Below are positions 40,653 through 46,535 of a stretch of DNA of 46,535 nt, piece by piece. A program made the translations under genes and the position numbers. Source of the stretch: a bacterium (lineage in GTDB: Bacteria > SAR324 > XYD2-FULL-50-16). The notes beneath the pieces are model-generated. The model saw nothing but the letters and a program-made list of their open reading frames with translations, was not told the origin of the DNA and searched no databases. The first letter of the stretch is position 1, and the number at the start of each line of letters is the position of its first letter. The stretch covers positions 1-46,535 of the forward strand of contig JAJRZQ010000045.1 of the NCBI GenBank assembly GCA_024275165.1, written 5' to 3'.

Positions 40653-41321
40653 TCAATTCAAAGTCAACATATAGCCGACCCCCCGCACGGTGCGGATATA
40701 TTCTTGCGGGGTCACCTCTTCAAATTTTTTGCGGATCGACTTGATATGGACATCCACCACATTGGTGTTGGGATCGAAATCATAGCCCCATACATTTTCT
40801 AAAATCTGCGTACGGCTCACCACGCAGTCTTGGTTGCGAACCAGATATTCTAAAATCGCGTATTCCTTGGGGCGCAATTGCAACTCTTGATCCCCCACAA
40901 AAACCCGATGGCTTTGGGTATTGATTTTTAAATCCCCTAGGGATAATTCCACCCGCAACCCTTGTTTTCTACGGAGTAAAGCACGAATTCGGGCCAAAAA
41001 CTCATCAAAGGCAAAGGGCTTGGTCAAGTAATCGTCGGCGCCGGCGTCTAACCCGGTGACCCGCTCCTTCACCGACACCCGGGCCGTCAACATCAAAATT
41101 GGGGTTTGTACCCCATGGCCACGCAAGGACTTGCAGATTTCAATGCCGTTCATGCGGGGCAGGTTGATATCTAAAATGATCAAGTCGTAAGAAGTCCCCA
41201 ACCCGTAATCCAGCCCCTCGCGCCCATCAGCGAGGTGATCTAGGGTAAAGCGTTCTTCTTCCAACCCTTTTTTGATAAATGAAGCGACCCCGGCTTCATC
41301 TTCGACCAACAGAATTCTCAT
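40653..41321 (-). CDS. OmpR/PhoB-family response regulator
   Basis: DNA-binding response regulator, 222 residues. The receiver domain has the acidic pair (LLVEDEA, residues 7-8), phospho-acceptor Asp51 in LIILDINLPRMNG, the switch Thr in LMLTARVS and the Lys in DDYLTKPFAFDE. The C-terminal winged helix is of the OmpR type: LRPKEYAILEYLVRNQ, then ENVWGYDFDPNTNVVDVHI and IRTVRGVGYML. The sequence is closest in feel to CusR/CopR-type regulators. AAAGGTG precedes ATG 41321. It is the last gene of the minus-strand cytochrome run, and the kinase at the right edge (46.3 kb) is its likely partner. Confidence 0.95.
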   Translation of the reverse strand: MRILLVEDEAGVASFIKKGLEEERFTLDHLADGREGLDYGLGTSYDLIILDINLPRMNGIEICKSLRGHGVQTPILMLTARVSVKERVTGLDAGADDYLTKPFAFDEFLARIRALLRRKQGLRVELSLGDLKINTQSHRVFVGDQELQLRPKEYAILEYLVRNQDCVVSRTQILENVWGYDFDPNTNVVDVHIKSIRKKFEEVTPQEYIRTVRGVGYMLTLN

Positions 41322-41328
41322 TGCACCT

Positions 41329-41994
41329 TTATTTGCCTTTTAATTCCCGACATCCGAAAAAATCCTTTTTGGAAAGAACATGGATATTTTCTTTTTTAAA
41401 CAGCTCCGCGAAGGCCTGTGCGTCATTTTTATGATAACTGTGATCATCCCCTTCATGAATCTCACAAAAAAACACCTTAAAGGAGATATTCAACTCGTCT
41501 TGCATATCCACCAGCCCCTTTGAGTAAGGCTTGATCCCAAATTCAGACTGCTTAATGACAAAATCCCCCTCCACTTGGACCACGGGGGGGAAGTACTCAA
41601 ACCGGGTCGCGATGGTAATGGGCCGCACCGTACCCCTTAAAGAAAGCAGACTTTGGACTTTTCTCGGTTTGGTTGAAGGCACAAAGTTTTCTAAATTGAT
41701 GGTGATTTCAGGGTACTTTTTCGCGTTGATGTAGTCTTCATCTTCCAAGACGCTTAAAACCCCGGGCAGGTTGAAGTCGAGCTCACTAAAGTGGAGGATG
41801 ATTTTCCCGCGATATTGGTCATTCTCTTCGATTAATTTCCCCTCGTGCTTCAGCGCTCGGCCTTGAAAATCAAAAAAATTGGTTTTCCCCTCGATGTCGA
41901 TGAAGCCTTTTTGCAAAATATAATAGACTTCGTACTCGGTGGCATGGGCTGCCCAGGGCAGCAAAAAAAACAAGAGGGCAAGCATTGCCTTCAT
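41329..41994 (-). CDS. YceI-like periplasmic protein
   Basis: Exported beta-barrel protein of the YceI family, which binds isoprenoid or lipid ligands such as quinone-like molecules; 221 residues. The leader MKAMLALLFFLLPWAAHA is a clear signal peptide. The family pattern is kept: YPEITINLENF, LRGTVRPITIATRF, FVIKQSEFGIKPYSKGL and VDMQDELNISFKV. The C-terminal ~45 residues (HEGDDHSYHKNDAQ, then a KKDFFGC end) go beyond the usual domain. ATG 41994 overlaps the stop of the 13-heme cytochrome by one base (TGATG); a TTG one codon earlier is possible. Co-expression with cytochromes suggests a role in quinone or haem-related electron transfer, which is inference. Confidence 0.85.
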   Translation of the reverse strand: MKAMLALLFFLLPWAAHATEYEVYYILQKGFIDIEGKTNFFDFQGRALKHEGKLIEENDQYRGKIILHFSELDFNLPGVLSVLEDEDYINAKKYPEITINLENFVPSTKPRKVQSLLSLRGTVRPITIATRFEYFPPVVQVEGDFVIKQSEFGIKPYSKGLVDMQDELNISFKVFFCEIHEGDDHSYHKNDAQAFAELFKKENIHVLSKKDFFGCRELKGK

Positions 41995-43235
41995 CAAGGT
42001 TCCTTCGGGAATTCATCGGCAAAGCGATGGGTTTTTTTCAAGCGTTTCAGCCGCTGGATCGGGTTTTCTCGATGTTTTCTTTTCCCGAATTTTTTTACCC
42101 TATGATCCCAGAGATCGCCAAAGGGCTCACTGTGGCATTTCACGCAGCGCTTTCTTACCATTTTATAGGTGAGCCGGTTGTCTTTCGGGTTATGGCAGCC
42201 CTCGCAACTCATGGTGCGGTACATGGGGTCGGGGCCGGCCCTTTCCCCCTTGGCATTGAGAAAGTCACCGAGCATCACCTTGCGCGCCACCTGATGGCAG
42301 GTATCGCATTGATTTTTCCCCGGCAATTTATATTGCTTGTTAGGGTGGCACTCCTTGCAAGCTATCTTTTTATGCAGATTCTTTAAAGGGAAAACCGCCT
42401 TGTCATGGTTAAAACGCCGGACACTCTTTTCTTCTTTGAGGTGGTTCCACCCCAAGGCTTGGTGACAATTCTTACAGTTGGGCAGTCGCTTTGCGTGAGG
42501 GTCTTGATGGCACCGGTCGCAGCGGCCCGGTATATCCTTAAAAGGAACCACCCGCGGGTTTTTTTCGCTTTTGTGGTGGCAGGCCTGGCAGAGCAGATTT
42601 TTATGCTTGCCTGCAATGGGGAAGTCGGAATCCTTGTCATGATCGAATTTCGTTTTATCCCAAGCGGAATCTCGGTGGCAATCCACACAAAACCGGTCAT
42701 CAAACTGCTTGGCATGCGGGTTTTTATGACAACTGTCGCAAGCTTTGTCCAACCCTTGATAACTAAACAGTTCGCGCTGCTTTTTATCGATGAGCAAGCT
42801 TTTGCTCTTTTCACTGCGGAATTTTTGCTGATGGCATTTTTTGCATTCGACCCGTTGGTGCGCCCCCTCTAAAGGAAAATCAACCTGATCGTGATCCACC
42901 TGTTGGATATCATAGATCCGGGCCTCTCGCCCTTGATGCTCACCATGACAGGTTTGACAAGAAGGAGGTTTTTGATAAAGCCCATGAAACCCCTCTTTTT
43001 CTTCTAAGCTTACGGCGATTTCCCGGTGGCAGGAAAGACAATTCTCATCAATCACCCCCTGATTTAAGCTGTGGCAAGAAAAACAACCTTGGGTCGTTTC
43101 CAAATAGGCATGGGCCTGACTTAAGGGGCCCGGGCTTAGAAAATCGCCCAAACGATGCAAAACCGGCTTACCGGCCCCTTGGCTCAATCCGGGAAACATA
43201 AAAAAAAAGCAAATCAGCCCAAGCTTATACCTCAT
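41994..43235 (-). CDS. 13-heme c-type cytochrome, periplasmic
   Basis: Multiheme electron carrier of 413 residues with 13 CxxCH heme sites and the signal peptide MRYKLGLICFFFMFPGLSQG. The start at 43235 is chosen for that leader. Sites in order: CFSCH, CLSCH, CQTCH, CKKCH, CDSCH, CVDCH, CQACH, CDRCH, CKNCH, CKECH, CDTCH, CEGCH, CVKCH. The middle is built of a repeated module of the form (F/V)xHD...FPLxxxHxxxxCxxCH: VDHDQVDFPLEGAH, FDHDKDSDFPIAGKH, FNHDKAVFPLKNLH. Such modules are known in large cytochromes of metal- and sulfur-respiring bacteria. The C-terminal ~40 residues are very basic. It overlaps the cytochrome b gene by 11 bases and YceI by 1. Confidence 0.93.
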   Translation of the reverse strand: MRYKLGLICFFFMFPGLSQGAGKPVLHRLGDFLSPGPLSQAHAYLETTQGCFSCHSLNQGVIDENCLSCHREIAVSLEEKEGFHGLYQKPPSCQTCHGEHQGREARIYDIQQVDHDQVDFPLEGAHQRVECKKCHQQKFRSEKSKSLLIDKKQRELFSYQGLDKACDSCHKNPHAKQFDDRFCVDCHRDSAWDKTKFDHDKDSDFPIAGKHKNLLCQACHHKSEKNPRVVPFKDIPGRCDRCHQDPHAKRLPNCKNCHQALGWNHLKEEKSVRRFNHDKAVFPLKNLHKKIACKECHPNKQYKLPGKNQCDTCHQVARKVMLGDFLNAKGERAGPDPMYRTMSCEGCHNPKDNRLTYKMVRKRCVKCHSEPFGDLWDHRVKKFGKRKHRENPIQRLKRLKKTHRFADEFPKEP

Positions 43236-43848
43236 GATCCCTTTTCGCCTCCAGGGCCCGCAATTGCAAGCTGTGATGTTCTTCCATGTACTCTCGAGGC
43301 ACAAACCCCCCATTAAACATCCCGGGCAAACCTTTTTTTGTGCTGGGATTGACCAACGCCATGAAAAGATGCCCCATCACCAACACCAAGGCAGCACAAG
43401 CAATTAAAGTATGCAGCCAGCGAGGGGCCATGCCCTGTGGGGCGAGCCACAACCAAACCCCGGTCAACTGCAATAAAATCGAATTCACCAAACTAGCCAA
43501 GGCGTTGATCTTTTGCCCGAAATTAAACTTTTCCTGGGCGGAATGCTGGTGAGTCCTTTGCGCTTGAATCCATTGCTTATCCAAATCCCCAAAGCTTGCG
43601 ATGTCGGTTAAATCCTGGGTAATAACCTCTGTTTTGCCCGCTAGGCTGACAATAGGGGGCAAACAGATCAAGACTATTCCCATGATCTTATGCAGATCAC
43701 TGAGGAACTCACCGCGCTGCATCCCCAACCAGCCCTCTAAGGCAAGCCAAAAGCCCGAAAGCAGCAAAATCAAAAAGGGGACCGCGTTAGCCCAATGCAA
43801 AAGGATCTCGGTTTTATGGAAGCGTTTGATCCAGCCAATGGGAGTCAT
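43225..43848 (-). CDS. cytochrome b subunit, FdnI (formate dehydrogenase gamma)-like
   Basis: Integral membrane diheme b cytochrome, about 207 residues, with four predicted helices. Candidate heme ligands are His in LLHWANAV (helix I), DLHKIMG (II), RWLHTLIA and VMGHLFMAL (IV). The C-terminal GLPGMFNGGFVPREYMEEHH matches the family's ...M-x-x-G-x-V-x-x-x-Y-x-x-x-H-H end. This subunit normally passes electrons between quinone and a periplasmic partner. No formate dehydrogenase alpha or beta subunit is next to it, so the neighbouring c-cytochromes are the expected partners. The start at 43848 lies 1 base after the pentaheme stop, with AGGA upstream. Confidence 0.88.
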   Translation of the reverse strand: MTPIGWIKRFHKTEILLHWANAVPFLILLLSGFWLALEGWLGMQRGEFLSDLHKIMGIVLICLPPIVSLAGKTEVITQDLTDIASFGDLDKQWIQAQRTHQHSAQEKFNFGQKINALASLVNSILLQLTGVWLWLAPQGMAPRWLHTLIACAALVLVMGHLFMALVNPSTKKGLPGMFNGGFVPREYMEEHHSLQLRALEAKRDHEV

Positions 43849-43849
43849 A

Positions 43850-44824
43850 TCAAATCCTGTTGCGCTGCGTAAAAATCCTTCGCCCAAAATCGGTGCGAGA
43901 GGTTCGCCGATTCACCTGAAACTCTACATATTCCGCTTCAGCTCGGGCTGAAGCGGAAAAAACAAAGCGTTTTTTAACCCTCTTACCGGGGAGGATGTTC
44001 CGCTTTTCCTCCACATAAAAGGTCACTATTTTTTCTTCTAAGGTCTTACCGCTAGGATTTTTTAAGGCCACAATCAAGTCAATCGCCTTGAAGCCGAAAA
44101 TCCCACTCGGCAAGCTATGGGGAATCTGGTGAGAAATCACCAAGTCAACGATAAAGCGCTCTTTTTGCTCCATAAACTTCGAGCTGATTCGCACCCAATC
44201 TTGATCGTCAAAGGGCTTTACATCGAGATTGAAGGTATGGCGGCCCACTTTTTGTTCCCAGTGCAAATATTGAAAAATCCCTTGGGGGATAAGTTTCCTC
44301 TCAGCTCGAGGCATGTGGCATTGCTGGCAGGTTTTAAGCTCTTTTTTGGGGTTGAGTTGTTGGACCCCCTCCCATTCTTTGAGATGCTCTTTGTGACAGG
44401 TACCGCAAAGTTTGGAATCTCGATAAAAGGGATCTTCCGTTTTACTGGCATGAGCGGGCAAAATGAATAAAGGGCCGGCGAGTTCTTGATCCGGGGTCAG
44501 GTGACAGGTGACACAGGTTACCCCTTCTGTAATATTGTTTTGCCGAACGCTCAATTTCTTGGACCCATAAATGGGGGCGGTGGCATGGCATACCAGGCAC
44601 TTTTTTACCGCGTAATTGTCGGTTTGCCGCTGAAAGTGAACGGAACGATAGGCCTGAGCGTGCCGACTTTTTTCCCACTCTTGATATTCATTCAGGTGGC
44701 ATTCTTTGCATTGCTCTGCCTTGGCCGTATGGGGCGGGGCTTCCACCAAATCGCTGTGGAGAAAGCAACCGCTCAAAGCCCAAAGAGGCAGCAAGACGAT
44801 AAAATTACGAATAAACTGTTTCAT
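43850..44824 (-). CDS. pentaheme c-type cytochrome lipoprotein (cytochrome c554-like)
   Basis: Predicted lipoprotein of 324 residues: the leader MKQFIRNFIVLLPLWALSGC puts the lipidated Cys at 20. Five CxxCH sites are present: CKECH, CLVCH, CVTCH, CGTCH, CQQCH. The pattern CKECHLNEYQEWEKSRHAQAY is typical of the c554/HAO-related group, where a W-x-x-S-x-H follows the first heme. The C-terminal ~150 residues have no hemes and look like a beta-sandwich (HTFNLDVKPF, IVDLVISHQIPHSLPSG, VTFYVEEKRNILPGKRV). It starts the block pentaheme, cytochrome b, 13-heme, YceI, RR, and directly precedes cytochrome b. The candidate operator at 44851-44877 lies upstream. Confidence 0.9.
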   Translation of the reverse strand: MKQFIRNFIVLLPLWALSGCFLHSDLVEAPPHTAKAEQCKECHLNEYQEWEKSRHAQAYRSVHFQRQTDNYAVKKCLVCHATAPIYGSKKLSVRQNNITEGVTCVTCHLTPDQELAGPLFILPAHASKTEDPFYRDSKLCGTCHKEHLKEWEGVQQLNPKKELKTCQQCHMPRAERKLIPQGIFQYLHWEQKVGRHTFNLDVKPFDDQDWVRISSKFMEQKERFIVDLVISHQIPHSLPSGIFGFKAIDLIVALKNPSGKTLEEKIVTFYVEEKRNILPGKRVKKRFVFSASARAEAEYVEFQVNRRTSRTDFGRRIFTQRNRI

Positions 44825-44850
44825 GGACCAAAGCAAAATGACTAACTTTA

Positions 44851-44877
44851 GAAACCTCAGCAAAATGAAGAGGTTTC
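44851..44877 (-). promoter_or_regulatory. inverted repeat upstream of the pentaheme cytochrome
   Basis: GAAACCTC (44851-44858) and GAGGTTTC (44870-44877), perfect over 8 bases with an 11-base spacer, 26 bases before the ATG. A direct repeat AGCAAAATGA also occurs at 44832-44841 and 44859-44868. It could be an operator or leader hairpin. No convincing -35/-10 pair was found beside it. Confidence 0.4.
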
Positions 44878-44966
44878 GCGCAGGGCTGAAGGCCTTGCCA
44901 AATCAATATGTTACACACCTTGATTTGCGTTAGGGTTGTGGATTTTCTTCCCAACGCCCAAGACTG

Positions 44967-44992
44967 AAAAACTCCATGAAGGGAGTTTTTTT
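44967..44992. terminator. hairpin terminator after the octaheme gene
   Basis: AAAAACTCC (44967-44975), 6-base loop, GGAGTTTTT (44982-44990) with further T. It reads as a terminator in both directions. On the minus strand it ends the octaheme transcript 10 bases after the stop, so the pentaheme block probably has its own promoter or receives attenuated read-through. Confidence 0.7.
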
Positions 44993-45002
44993 ATAGGCTC
45001 CT

Positions 45003-45701
45003 TTAGTCTCCTTCGCCAAGCCATTTAGCTCCATGGCACTTATAACAAGAAGAAGGGGCTTTTGTCCCGCCCGTCAAGGCTGCCCCATGGCAAGGGCTGC
45101 AAAAGGCATCGGGTTGATTGAGGTTTTTCCCGTGCAAATACCCATCTTGGCTCTCAACATGCGGGGTTTTAATCCAATAGTCGCTATGGCAGCTATAGCA
45201 AGAAGGGGCGTTACCCGCTCCCTTCAAGTCCGCGCCGTGGCAATTGAGACAAGATTTTTCCGGGGTATATAAAGACACCCCATGATAATATCCCCCCCTT
45301 TGATCAATATGAATGGCGAGGGGCTCCCAAACCGCGCCATGGCATTGATAGCAACTAGGCCTGGAATAGCGCCCTTTTAAGTCCGAACCGTGGCAGGGGG
45401 TGCAGGTTGTGGCGGCGATGACCGCGCCGGAGCGGTGCATGGAACCTTGCCGACTGACTTGATGATCATCCCGATTCCATAAAACATCATGGCAGGAGTA
45501 GCAGCCCTTGATCGGGCCGTTGCCGTTTAAATTTATTCCATGGCATGCGGTACAGTTTTTTGCCCCCTTATAGAGCTTTTTACCATGCATCTTCCCATTT
45601 AAATTGATGTTGTGGGAAGTCAGCCCCTTCAGCGCGTCCTTACAACCGACACTGATGAAACTCAGCAACAATAAACTTAAAATTAAAACATAAAACCGCA
45701 T
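45003..45701 (-). CDS. octaheme c-type cytochrome lipoprotein made of four diheme repeats
   Basis: Predicted lipoprotein of 232 residues with Cys20 in the lipobox SVGC and eight CxxCH sites. The mature protein is four copies of a ~50-residue unit, starting at heme cysteines 50, 100, 151 and 201. Each has CxxCHGxxLxG followed 12-13 residues later by CYxCHxxxW. Outside the heme motifs there are exactly eight histidines (30, 39, 80, 89, 131, 140, 181, 190), in four H-x8-H pairs, one pair before each unit. This fits bis-His ligation of all eight hemes. The ribosome site GGAGGAGG is strong. The start overlaps the end of the preceding exported-protein gene by 19 bases. Likely an elongated periplasmic or surface wire; no named family recognised. 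Confidence 0.9.
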   Translation of the reverse strand: MRFYVLILSLLLLSFISVGCKDALKGLTSHNINLNGKMHGKKLYKGAKNCTACHGINLNGNGPIKGCYSCHDVLWNRDDHQVSRQGSMHRSGAVIAATTCTPCHGSDLKGRYSRPSCYQCHGAVWEPLAIHIDQRGGYYHGVSLYTPEKSCLNCHGADLKGAGNAPSCYSCHSDYWIKTPHVESQDGYLHGKNLNQPDAFCSPCHGAALTGGTKAPSSCYKCHGAKWLGEGD

Positions 45702-46234
45702 AAAACGCCTCCTCCAATTAAGCCGCCAAACGAATTGGCTGTCGCCTCACAAGCAAAGGGACCAAATTGTTCTTGAAGCTTGAACAATAAAACCCCATAA
45801 TGCACATCTTTTGCGGTGAAAAAAGGAGTTAGGTCAAGACTCCCGGTTTGGGTTTCGGTTGTCTCGGCAATACCGTAACCAATACCGGGGCCAATCCCAT
45901 CTAAGCCCCAAACATCGGTAAACAGGGCAAACCAATCAGCCTCAACCGACCTCATGCCCACCGTCACGGTTCCACTGGCACCGTTCTTGGTTTTTAGGGC
46001 CGAACCAGTTAGAGTATGCAGATAAATGGTCGTCTCTTGCTGCATTCCCCAAAACAAATCAGCCTGATACCCCCCCATTACCGAGAGACCCAGCATAGGA
46101 ATCCCTTGACTGGTCAAAGAAACCCCGCCCAAGACTTTCGCTTCACCGGCGCGCAAATTTTTTGCCTGAAAGGAAAAAAGAATCAAAAAAGTTAGCGTTA
46201 AGGGTCCAAAAAGTTTTTTATAATCCAAAGACAT
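45683..46234 (-). CDS. small exported Gly-rich protein, possible outer-membrane beta-barrel
   Basis: Protein of 183 residues that I do not recognise. The start at 46234 (MSLDYKKLFGPLTLTF) has GAGGAAAAC upstream and gives a normal signal peptide; an ATG ten codons earlier would spoil it. The mature part is rich in Gly and alternating hydrophobic residues (KVLGGVSLTSQG, LGLSVMGGYQADLFWG, GTVTVGMRSVEADWF, GIGPGIGYGIAET), with a terminal Phe, as in small outer-membrane beta-barrels. It overlaps the octaheme lipoprotein gene and follows the kinase gene, so it belongs to the cytochrome run. An outer-membrane role is inference from composition. Confidence 0.72.
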   Translation of the reverse strand: MSLDYKKLFGPLTLTFLILFSFQAKNLRAGEAKVLGGVSLTSQGIPMLGLSVMGGYQADLFWGMQQETTIYLHTLTGSALKTKNGASGTVTVGMRSVEADWFALFTDVWGLDGIGPGIGYGIAETTETQTGSLDLTPFFTAKDVHYGVLLFKLQEQFGPFACEATANSFGGLIGGGVLCGFMF

Positions 46235-46318
46235 GGTTTTCCTCAAAGCAAAAGCAACTACCAAAGTGCCTAAATGTCAGTTTAGCAAAAAAAAATTAAA
46301 TTGTAATAACCTACTTCA

Positions 46319-46535
46319 TTACCGTAAGGGAATTTGCATCCTTAAGGTGAACTCTTGGGGTTGAGTATAACTTGCCTCCATCTTGCCTCCGTGAGAGAAA
46401 ATAATGTAGCGCGCGATATTCAAACCCAGCCCCTTGCCTTTTGCGCCTCCCACATTGCTGCCACGAAAAAAGGGATCAAACAAATGCTCGACTTCTTCTT
46501 CCTTTAAAGGCTGGGCCGTGTTGGAAAAGATCAGG
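46319..46535 (-). CDS. sensor histidine kinase, C-terminal end (cut by window edge)
   Basis: Last 71 codons of a histidine kinase ATP-binding domain, stop TAA at 46321-46319; the gene continues beyond the right edge. Visible are FDPFFRGSN (F box), GGAKGKGLGLNIARYI (G2 box), FSHGGKMEA and the final LRMQIPLR. The sensor, HAMP and phospho-His regions are outside. It is upstream in transcription of the cytochrome run whose last gene is a response regulator, and no other kinase is in the window, so these are the natural pair. Confidence 0.9.
   Translation of the reverse strand, partial: LIFSNTAQPLKEEEVEHLFDPFFRGSNVGGAKGKGLGLNIARYIIFSHGGKMEASYTQPQEFTLRMQIPLR

Follow-up and report, generated by a model that had tools for sequence, protein, structure and literature searches.

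A ten-gene redox operon at the edge of a contig

The window analysed here is the complete contig C38 (46,535 nucleotides) of genome G000, from an uncultured bacterium. The identities of two related genomes (below) place its family in the Lambdaproteobacteria/SAR324 group, SAR324 being its probable GTDB phylum. Its right end carries most of an operon that joins multiheme cytochromes, a membrane cytochrome b and a two-component system to a Sphaeroides heme protein homologue (SHP). The eight minus-strand genes described in the original prediction were all present, in the order claimed. The first comprises the C-terminal 71 codons of a sensor histidine kinase (46319..46535, Pfam HATPase_c), followed by a small exported protein predicted by AlphaFold2 to form an eight-stranded outer-membrane beta-barrel (45683..46234), a predicted lipoprotein with eight CxxCH motifs (octaheme, 45003..45701) and a pentaheme lipoprotein with five such motifs and a C-terminal Ig-like beta-sandwich, similar to ExtKL and T. 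tepidum c552 (43850..44824). Next are an FdnI-like four-helix diheme cytochrome b (PF01292), the predicted quinone-reactive subunit (43225..43848), an exported 13-heme cytochrome with class III/c7 repeats, assigned by Pfam and motif count (41994..43235), an exported YceI-like protein (Pfam PF04264, 41329..41994) and, as the final gene of the operon, an OmpR/CzcR-type response regulator (Pfam PF00072 and PF00486, 40653..41321). The count of 26 c-heme sites (8 + 5 + 13 CxxCH motifs) held, and the overlaps of 19, 11 and 1 bases were exact with ATG starts at 45701, 43235 and 41994, which are backed by the relatives described below. An alternative TTG start of the cytochrome b gene lies at 43887.

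The kinase is truncated because the contig ends inside its gene, leaving the last 71 residues of the HATPase_c domain alone. In the same genome, the sole strong full-length match to the kinase of the relatives was on contig C27, where the gene ends at base 125. The first 341 bases of C27 correspond to the last 341 of the window (339 identical, two mismatches). On its minus strand (locus L024), C27 encodes the full sensor histidine kinase (406 aa, 125-1345), DHC (191 aa, two hemes, PF09626, 1342-1917) and SHP (159 aa, one heme, PF09086, 1918-2397). Beyond SHP lies an Hpt-like gene, for which the Hpt domain was tested on the counterpart in locus L010. Since C27 completes the kinase and adds DHC and SHP, the operon comprises ten genes with 29 c-type heme sites, in the order SHP–DHC–kinase–barrel–octaheme–pentaheme–cytochrome b–13-heme–YceI–response regulator. 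An assembly artefact at the join of C38 and C27 was rejected because three relatives hold the SHP–DHC–kinase–barrel order within single contigs. The earlier picture of a self-contained cluster with a two-component system of its own as its two ends does not survive, as all four genomes have the SHP and DHC genes immediately past the kinase and the operon continues into them.

Conservation across four genera

Three other genomes carry all ten genes with no change of order. They represent three further genera of a single SAR324-group family: G001 (a 'Deltaproteobacteria' metagenome-assembled genome, MAG), G002 and G004 (Candidatus Lambdaproteobacteria RIFOXYD2_FULL_50_16). Their operons hold 36 (G001, including a cytochrome chimera described below), 32 (G002) and 29 (G004) heme sites. 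The proteins are 36–75% identical across the four genera, with mean pairwise identities ranging from 39% (barrel) up to 70% (regulator), and preservation of the order at this level of divergence shows that the arrangement is not due to chance. The original prediction had depended on these genes travelling together, and across the four genera they do. The upstream flank (Hpt-like, rlmH-like and nadD-like genes) is common to G000, G002 and G004 and different in G001, so that the unit was held together in a changed neighbourhood. Among the 52 genomes of the phylum searched, the ten-gene order was not found outside these four; matches to the barrel profile were likewise limited to 4/52 genomes, and strong matches to the octaheme and YceI profiles were confined to the same four.

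Properties of the encoded proteins

The identity of SHP was clear from PF09086 (E 1e-33) and from the best PDB match of its profile, the R. sphaeroides SHP structure (1dw0, E 5e-24); cytochrome c'' (1e8e) also matched. It has a single CxxCH motif and an RNC...C segment, invariant in 4/4 genomes, that at sequence level corresponds to the Asn residue which Meyer et al. describe as the sixth heme ligand and to the disulfide after it. The adjoining DHC (PF09626) had its best PDB match in 2fw5 (E 3e-32).

The cytochrome b aligned along its full length with FdnI (PDB 1kqf_C, profile E 3e-6). It has four helices and four histidines (H31, H66, H159 and H173) that are invariant in the four genomes, which together with PF01292 bears out its assignment as FdnI-like, and it scores under the curated formate dehydrogenase cut-offs. 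The counterparts of the 13-heme cytochrome carry 16 hemes in two relatives and 13 in the third. The pentaheme protein matched the Pfam cytochrome C554 family, and it reached 43 bits against NF040886 (ExtKL; E 1.8e-11), which is below the cut-off of 250. A weak relationship to ExtKL and T. tepidum c552 is suggested by its sequence and fold matches to PDB 5ze8 (E 1.4e-10); in the AlphaFold model the heme part has pLDDT below 50, and the usable part is the C-terminal Ig-like domain. The YceI-like protein is possibly a lipid or quinone carrier.

No Pfam family matched the sensor domain of the kinase. Strings typical of SK1 (SGVYWQ/RSRSLWD-like) were absent from 4/4 kinases, a comparison limited to SK1 among the types SK1, SK2 and SK3. 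The regulator matched TIGR01387 (E 7e-69, below the curated cut-off), and both signalling proteins are nearest to the heavy-metal subfamilies TIGR01386/TIGR01387, at scores far under the cut-offs.

The barrel was modelled with a mean pLDDT of 75.5 as eight strands of 9–20 residues behind a signal helix. It matched no Pfam family, and fold comparison gave weak top hits to Ail, PagP and OmpA (E about 7e-3). Six barrel-family genes were found in the phylum, and each has an octaheme gene after it; two of these pairs lie elsewhere in the relatives, with profile matches that share 16 bases. Such consistent pairing speaks for a unit of barrel and lipoprotein at the outer membrane, the predicted location. 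Eight-stranded barrels are too narrow to house a cytochrome, so that passage across the outer membrane would differ from MtrCAB, whose conduit requires a large porin of 20 or more strands. No porin of the MtrB type was found: PF11854 (MtrB/PioB), the one porin family searched for, was absent from all four genomes. The recurring pair also suggests that cytochromes are arranged at the outer membrane in a way that differs from the large porin conduits.

Relation to SHP operons and other electron-transfer systems

SHP, DHC and a cytochrome b typically form an operon of three to six genes, mostly with a kinase and a regulator (Meyer et al. 2010, PMC2909971). In the published reading, electrons pass from quinol through cytochrome b and DHC to SHP, and SHP binds O2 and has reported NO dioxygenase activity (PMC2909971). 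The SAR324 operon shares with these the adjacent SHP (PF09086) and DHC (PF09626), a membrane cytochrome b and the kinase/regulator pair. It differs in the addition of the small barrel, the octaheme, pentaheme and 13-heme cytochromes and the YceI-like protein, in having an FdnI-like cytochrome b of its own and in a kinase without the printed SK1 motifs. The combination, which the original prediction could not name, is nameable in part, as an SHP operon (PMC2909971) enlarged here by a multiheme module. Literature searches found no description of the ten-gene combination or of Lambdaproteobacteria multihemes. The original prediction would have been countered by a catalytic oxidoreductase just beyond the kinase that turned the set into a known complex. 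This holds by half: SHP, a ligand-binding cytochrome with reported NO dioxygenase activity, does lie there, but the whole set is not thereby a known complex.

The classical CytB/mDHC chimera stands directly upstream of SHP in G001 only. In G000, G002 and G004 the single chimera occupies a separate locus without SHP, beside a three-motif DHC protein. This second locus lies at 118154-119927 of contig C14 in G000 (L158:6155-7928) and is kept in G002 (L159) and G004 (L160). In other genera of the SAR324 group the SHP operon stands by itself and lacks the multiheme module.

Several known systems resemble parts of the operon. The cytochrome b is like FdnI, the gamma subunit of formate dehydrogenase, in its four-histidine diheme arrangement and KxNxGQK motif (1kqf_C). 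As previously claimed, neither FdnG/FdnH nor other catalytic dehydrogenase subunits were found within the operon or close beside it in any of the four genomes, and a formate dehydrogenase remnant was rejected since no catalytic genes are present. Inner-membrane quinol gates of the Geobacter CbcL type couple a cytochrome b to periplasmic multiheme c-type cytochromes and, with the porin–cytochrome conduits, offer a possible comparison. The SAR324 set differs in that cytochrome b and multihemes are separate genes instead of a fusion and a large porin is lacking.

The pentaheme protein shares five hemes, a C554-like start and an Ig-like C-terminal domain with ExtKL of Geobacter, sPHC of cable bacteria and T. 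tepidum c552. A cable-bacteria study placed ExtKL in a pentaheme family structurally homologous to c552, and ExtKL is proposed to act in Geobacter extracellular electron transfer (PMC11976967). Unlike that family, the SAR324 protein falls under the NF040886 cut-off, adjoins no ExtI-type porin and is paired with cytochrome b, the 13-heme protein and SHP.

Related pentaheme genes were also found in other lineages; a scan with the cytochrome b protein alone gave no matches, and alignment of the pentaheme protein gave them. In a Nitrospira-labelled MAG (L064:3489-10987) a single row contains the genes of a regulator, a kinase, an FdnI-like cytochrome b and, after an epimerase-like gene, a 19-heme and a pentaheme protein; two unrelated genes are interposed. 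No SHP was found in its genome. In anammox planctomycetes (L027-L044) the pentaheme protein adjoins a 10-heme and a 5- or 11-heme protein, and no FdnI-like cytochrome b was detected in the flanking sequence that was retrieved. In L029 the N-terminal part of the 10-heme protein includes a hydrophobic stretch similar to a NapC-like anchor. Like the SAR324 operon, both kinds of row pair a related pentaheme with long multiheme proteins, and L064 shares the cytochrome b and an adjacent kinase/regulator pair as well; unlike it, neither had a detectable SHP, DHC, barrel, octaheme lipoprotein or YceI-like protein.

A proposed electron route and its alternatives

We propose a single regulated redox operon in which an SHP/DHC pathway has merged with a quinol-driven multiheme relay, a reading to which we attach about as much belief as doubt. 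The FdnI-like cytochrome b would take electrons from quinol and pass them to the 13-heme cytochrome in the periplasm, from which they would reach the pentaheme and octaheme lipoproteins, the latter placed alongside the small barrel at the outer membrane and perhaps exposed at the surface. SHP would receive its electrons from DHC. Its open heme site may bind a small molecule, by comparison with studied SHPs either O2 or NO, and SHP would serve as the reactive terminus or as a protective branch; the two branches would be in contact. The kinase and regulator, whose genes flank the multiheme module, would induce the set in response to a periplasmic signal. Of the conduit originally suggested, a route from quinol to the periplasm or outer membrane is retained as the best reading for the six middle genes; the suggestion was incomplete because the contig ended too early, and the set extends past the kinase. 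If correct, the conserved operon ties SHP to a respiratory or extracellular electron route, which provides a testable clue to SHP function.

Several observations weigh against this proposal. As other SAR324-group genera have SHP operons alone and L064 has the multiheme core but no SHP, the two modules can exist apart and may simply share their regulation. As three of the four genomes keep CytB/mDHC elsewhere, SHP may draw its electrons from the chimera instead of the multiheme chain. A single transcript is uncertain in G000, because 178 bases part the octaheme and pentaheme genes; in L009 the gap is about 70 bases, and in L010 and L011 the two genes are adjacent. The mechanism for these proteins is itself drawn from sequence comparison. 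The two modules are separable, yet they are joined, and kept joined, in this SAR324-group family.

The same separability favours the strongest alternative, in which the multiheme module is an extracellular conduit to minerals or partner cells and SHP–DHC a distinct NO/O2-scavenging pathway that shares the operon and its regulators. Two lipoprotein multihemes, an outer-membrane-like barrel and a pentaheme akin to ExtKL, with its proposed role in Geobacter (PMC11976967), are consistent with such a conduit. We nevertheless consider it possible but unlikely, given a barrel too narrow for a cytochrome, the PF11854 result and, for a separate SHP pathway, a link to SHP that was kept across four genera. 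More doubtful is an envelope-spanning terminal oxidase or NO/O2-reducing system, in which a quinol-driven relay would end in SHP and in surface lipoproteins seated in an eight-stranded barrel instead of a large porin.

Electrons might also flow inwards, from an extracellular or periplasmic donor such as Fe(II) or mineral sulfide through the lipoproteins and the 13-heme protein to the quinone pool, and an FdnI-like cytochrome b can in principle work in both directions. The SHP operon of Allochromatium vinosum (genes Alvin_0020-0025, including DHC, cytochrome b561, DUF1924 and a regulator) is among the genes most induced on pyrite compared with sulfide (PMC11267869). However, that response may be to metals, as efflux genes were co-induced, the studied SHP is read as quinol-reduced (PMC2909971) and a donor-side enzyme is absent, which together make this direction improbable. 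Finally, a metal or redox-stress operon, in which a CzcRS/CopRS-like two-component system induces cytochromes and YceI for envelope redox balance without a respiratory role, would fit the nearest TIGR subfamilies and the linkage of A. vinosum SHP genes to Czc/efflux genes (PMC2909971, PMC11267869), but it appears very unlikely, as the TIGR scores are far under their cut-offs in a class (OmpR) whose members all look alike, the sensor domain has no Pfam match and 29–36 hemes would be a heavy investment for a stress response.

Minor features

A hairpin at ~44945-45002, in the gap between the octaheme and pentaheme genes, was rejected as a terminator, its fold being no better than shuffles (z -0.84), and promoter and terminator scans of the locus gave no useful excess. 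An inverted repeat at 43931-43958, towards the 3' end of the pentaheme gene, has two 12-base arms that match perfectly around a 4-base loop.

Paralogues of the octaheme lipoprotein are spread through the four genomes (L176, L177, L178, L179, L180 and L181). This includes three in a row on contig C158 of G001, and contig C46 of G004 carries a barrel paired with a 10-heme protein. On contig C42 of G000 (L177:7855-11378), an octaheme-family protein with five motifs is encoded close to a hemerythrin-domain gene and an 8-heme cytochrome, which hints at a link to O2 or NO.

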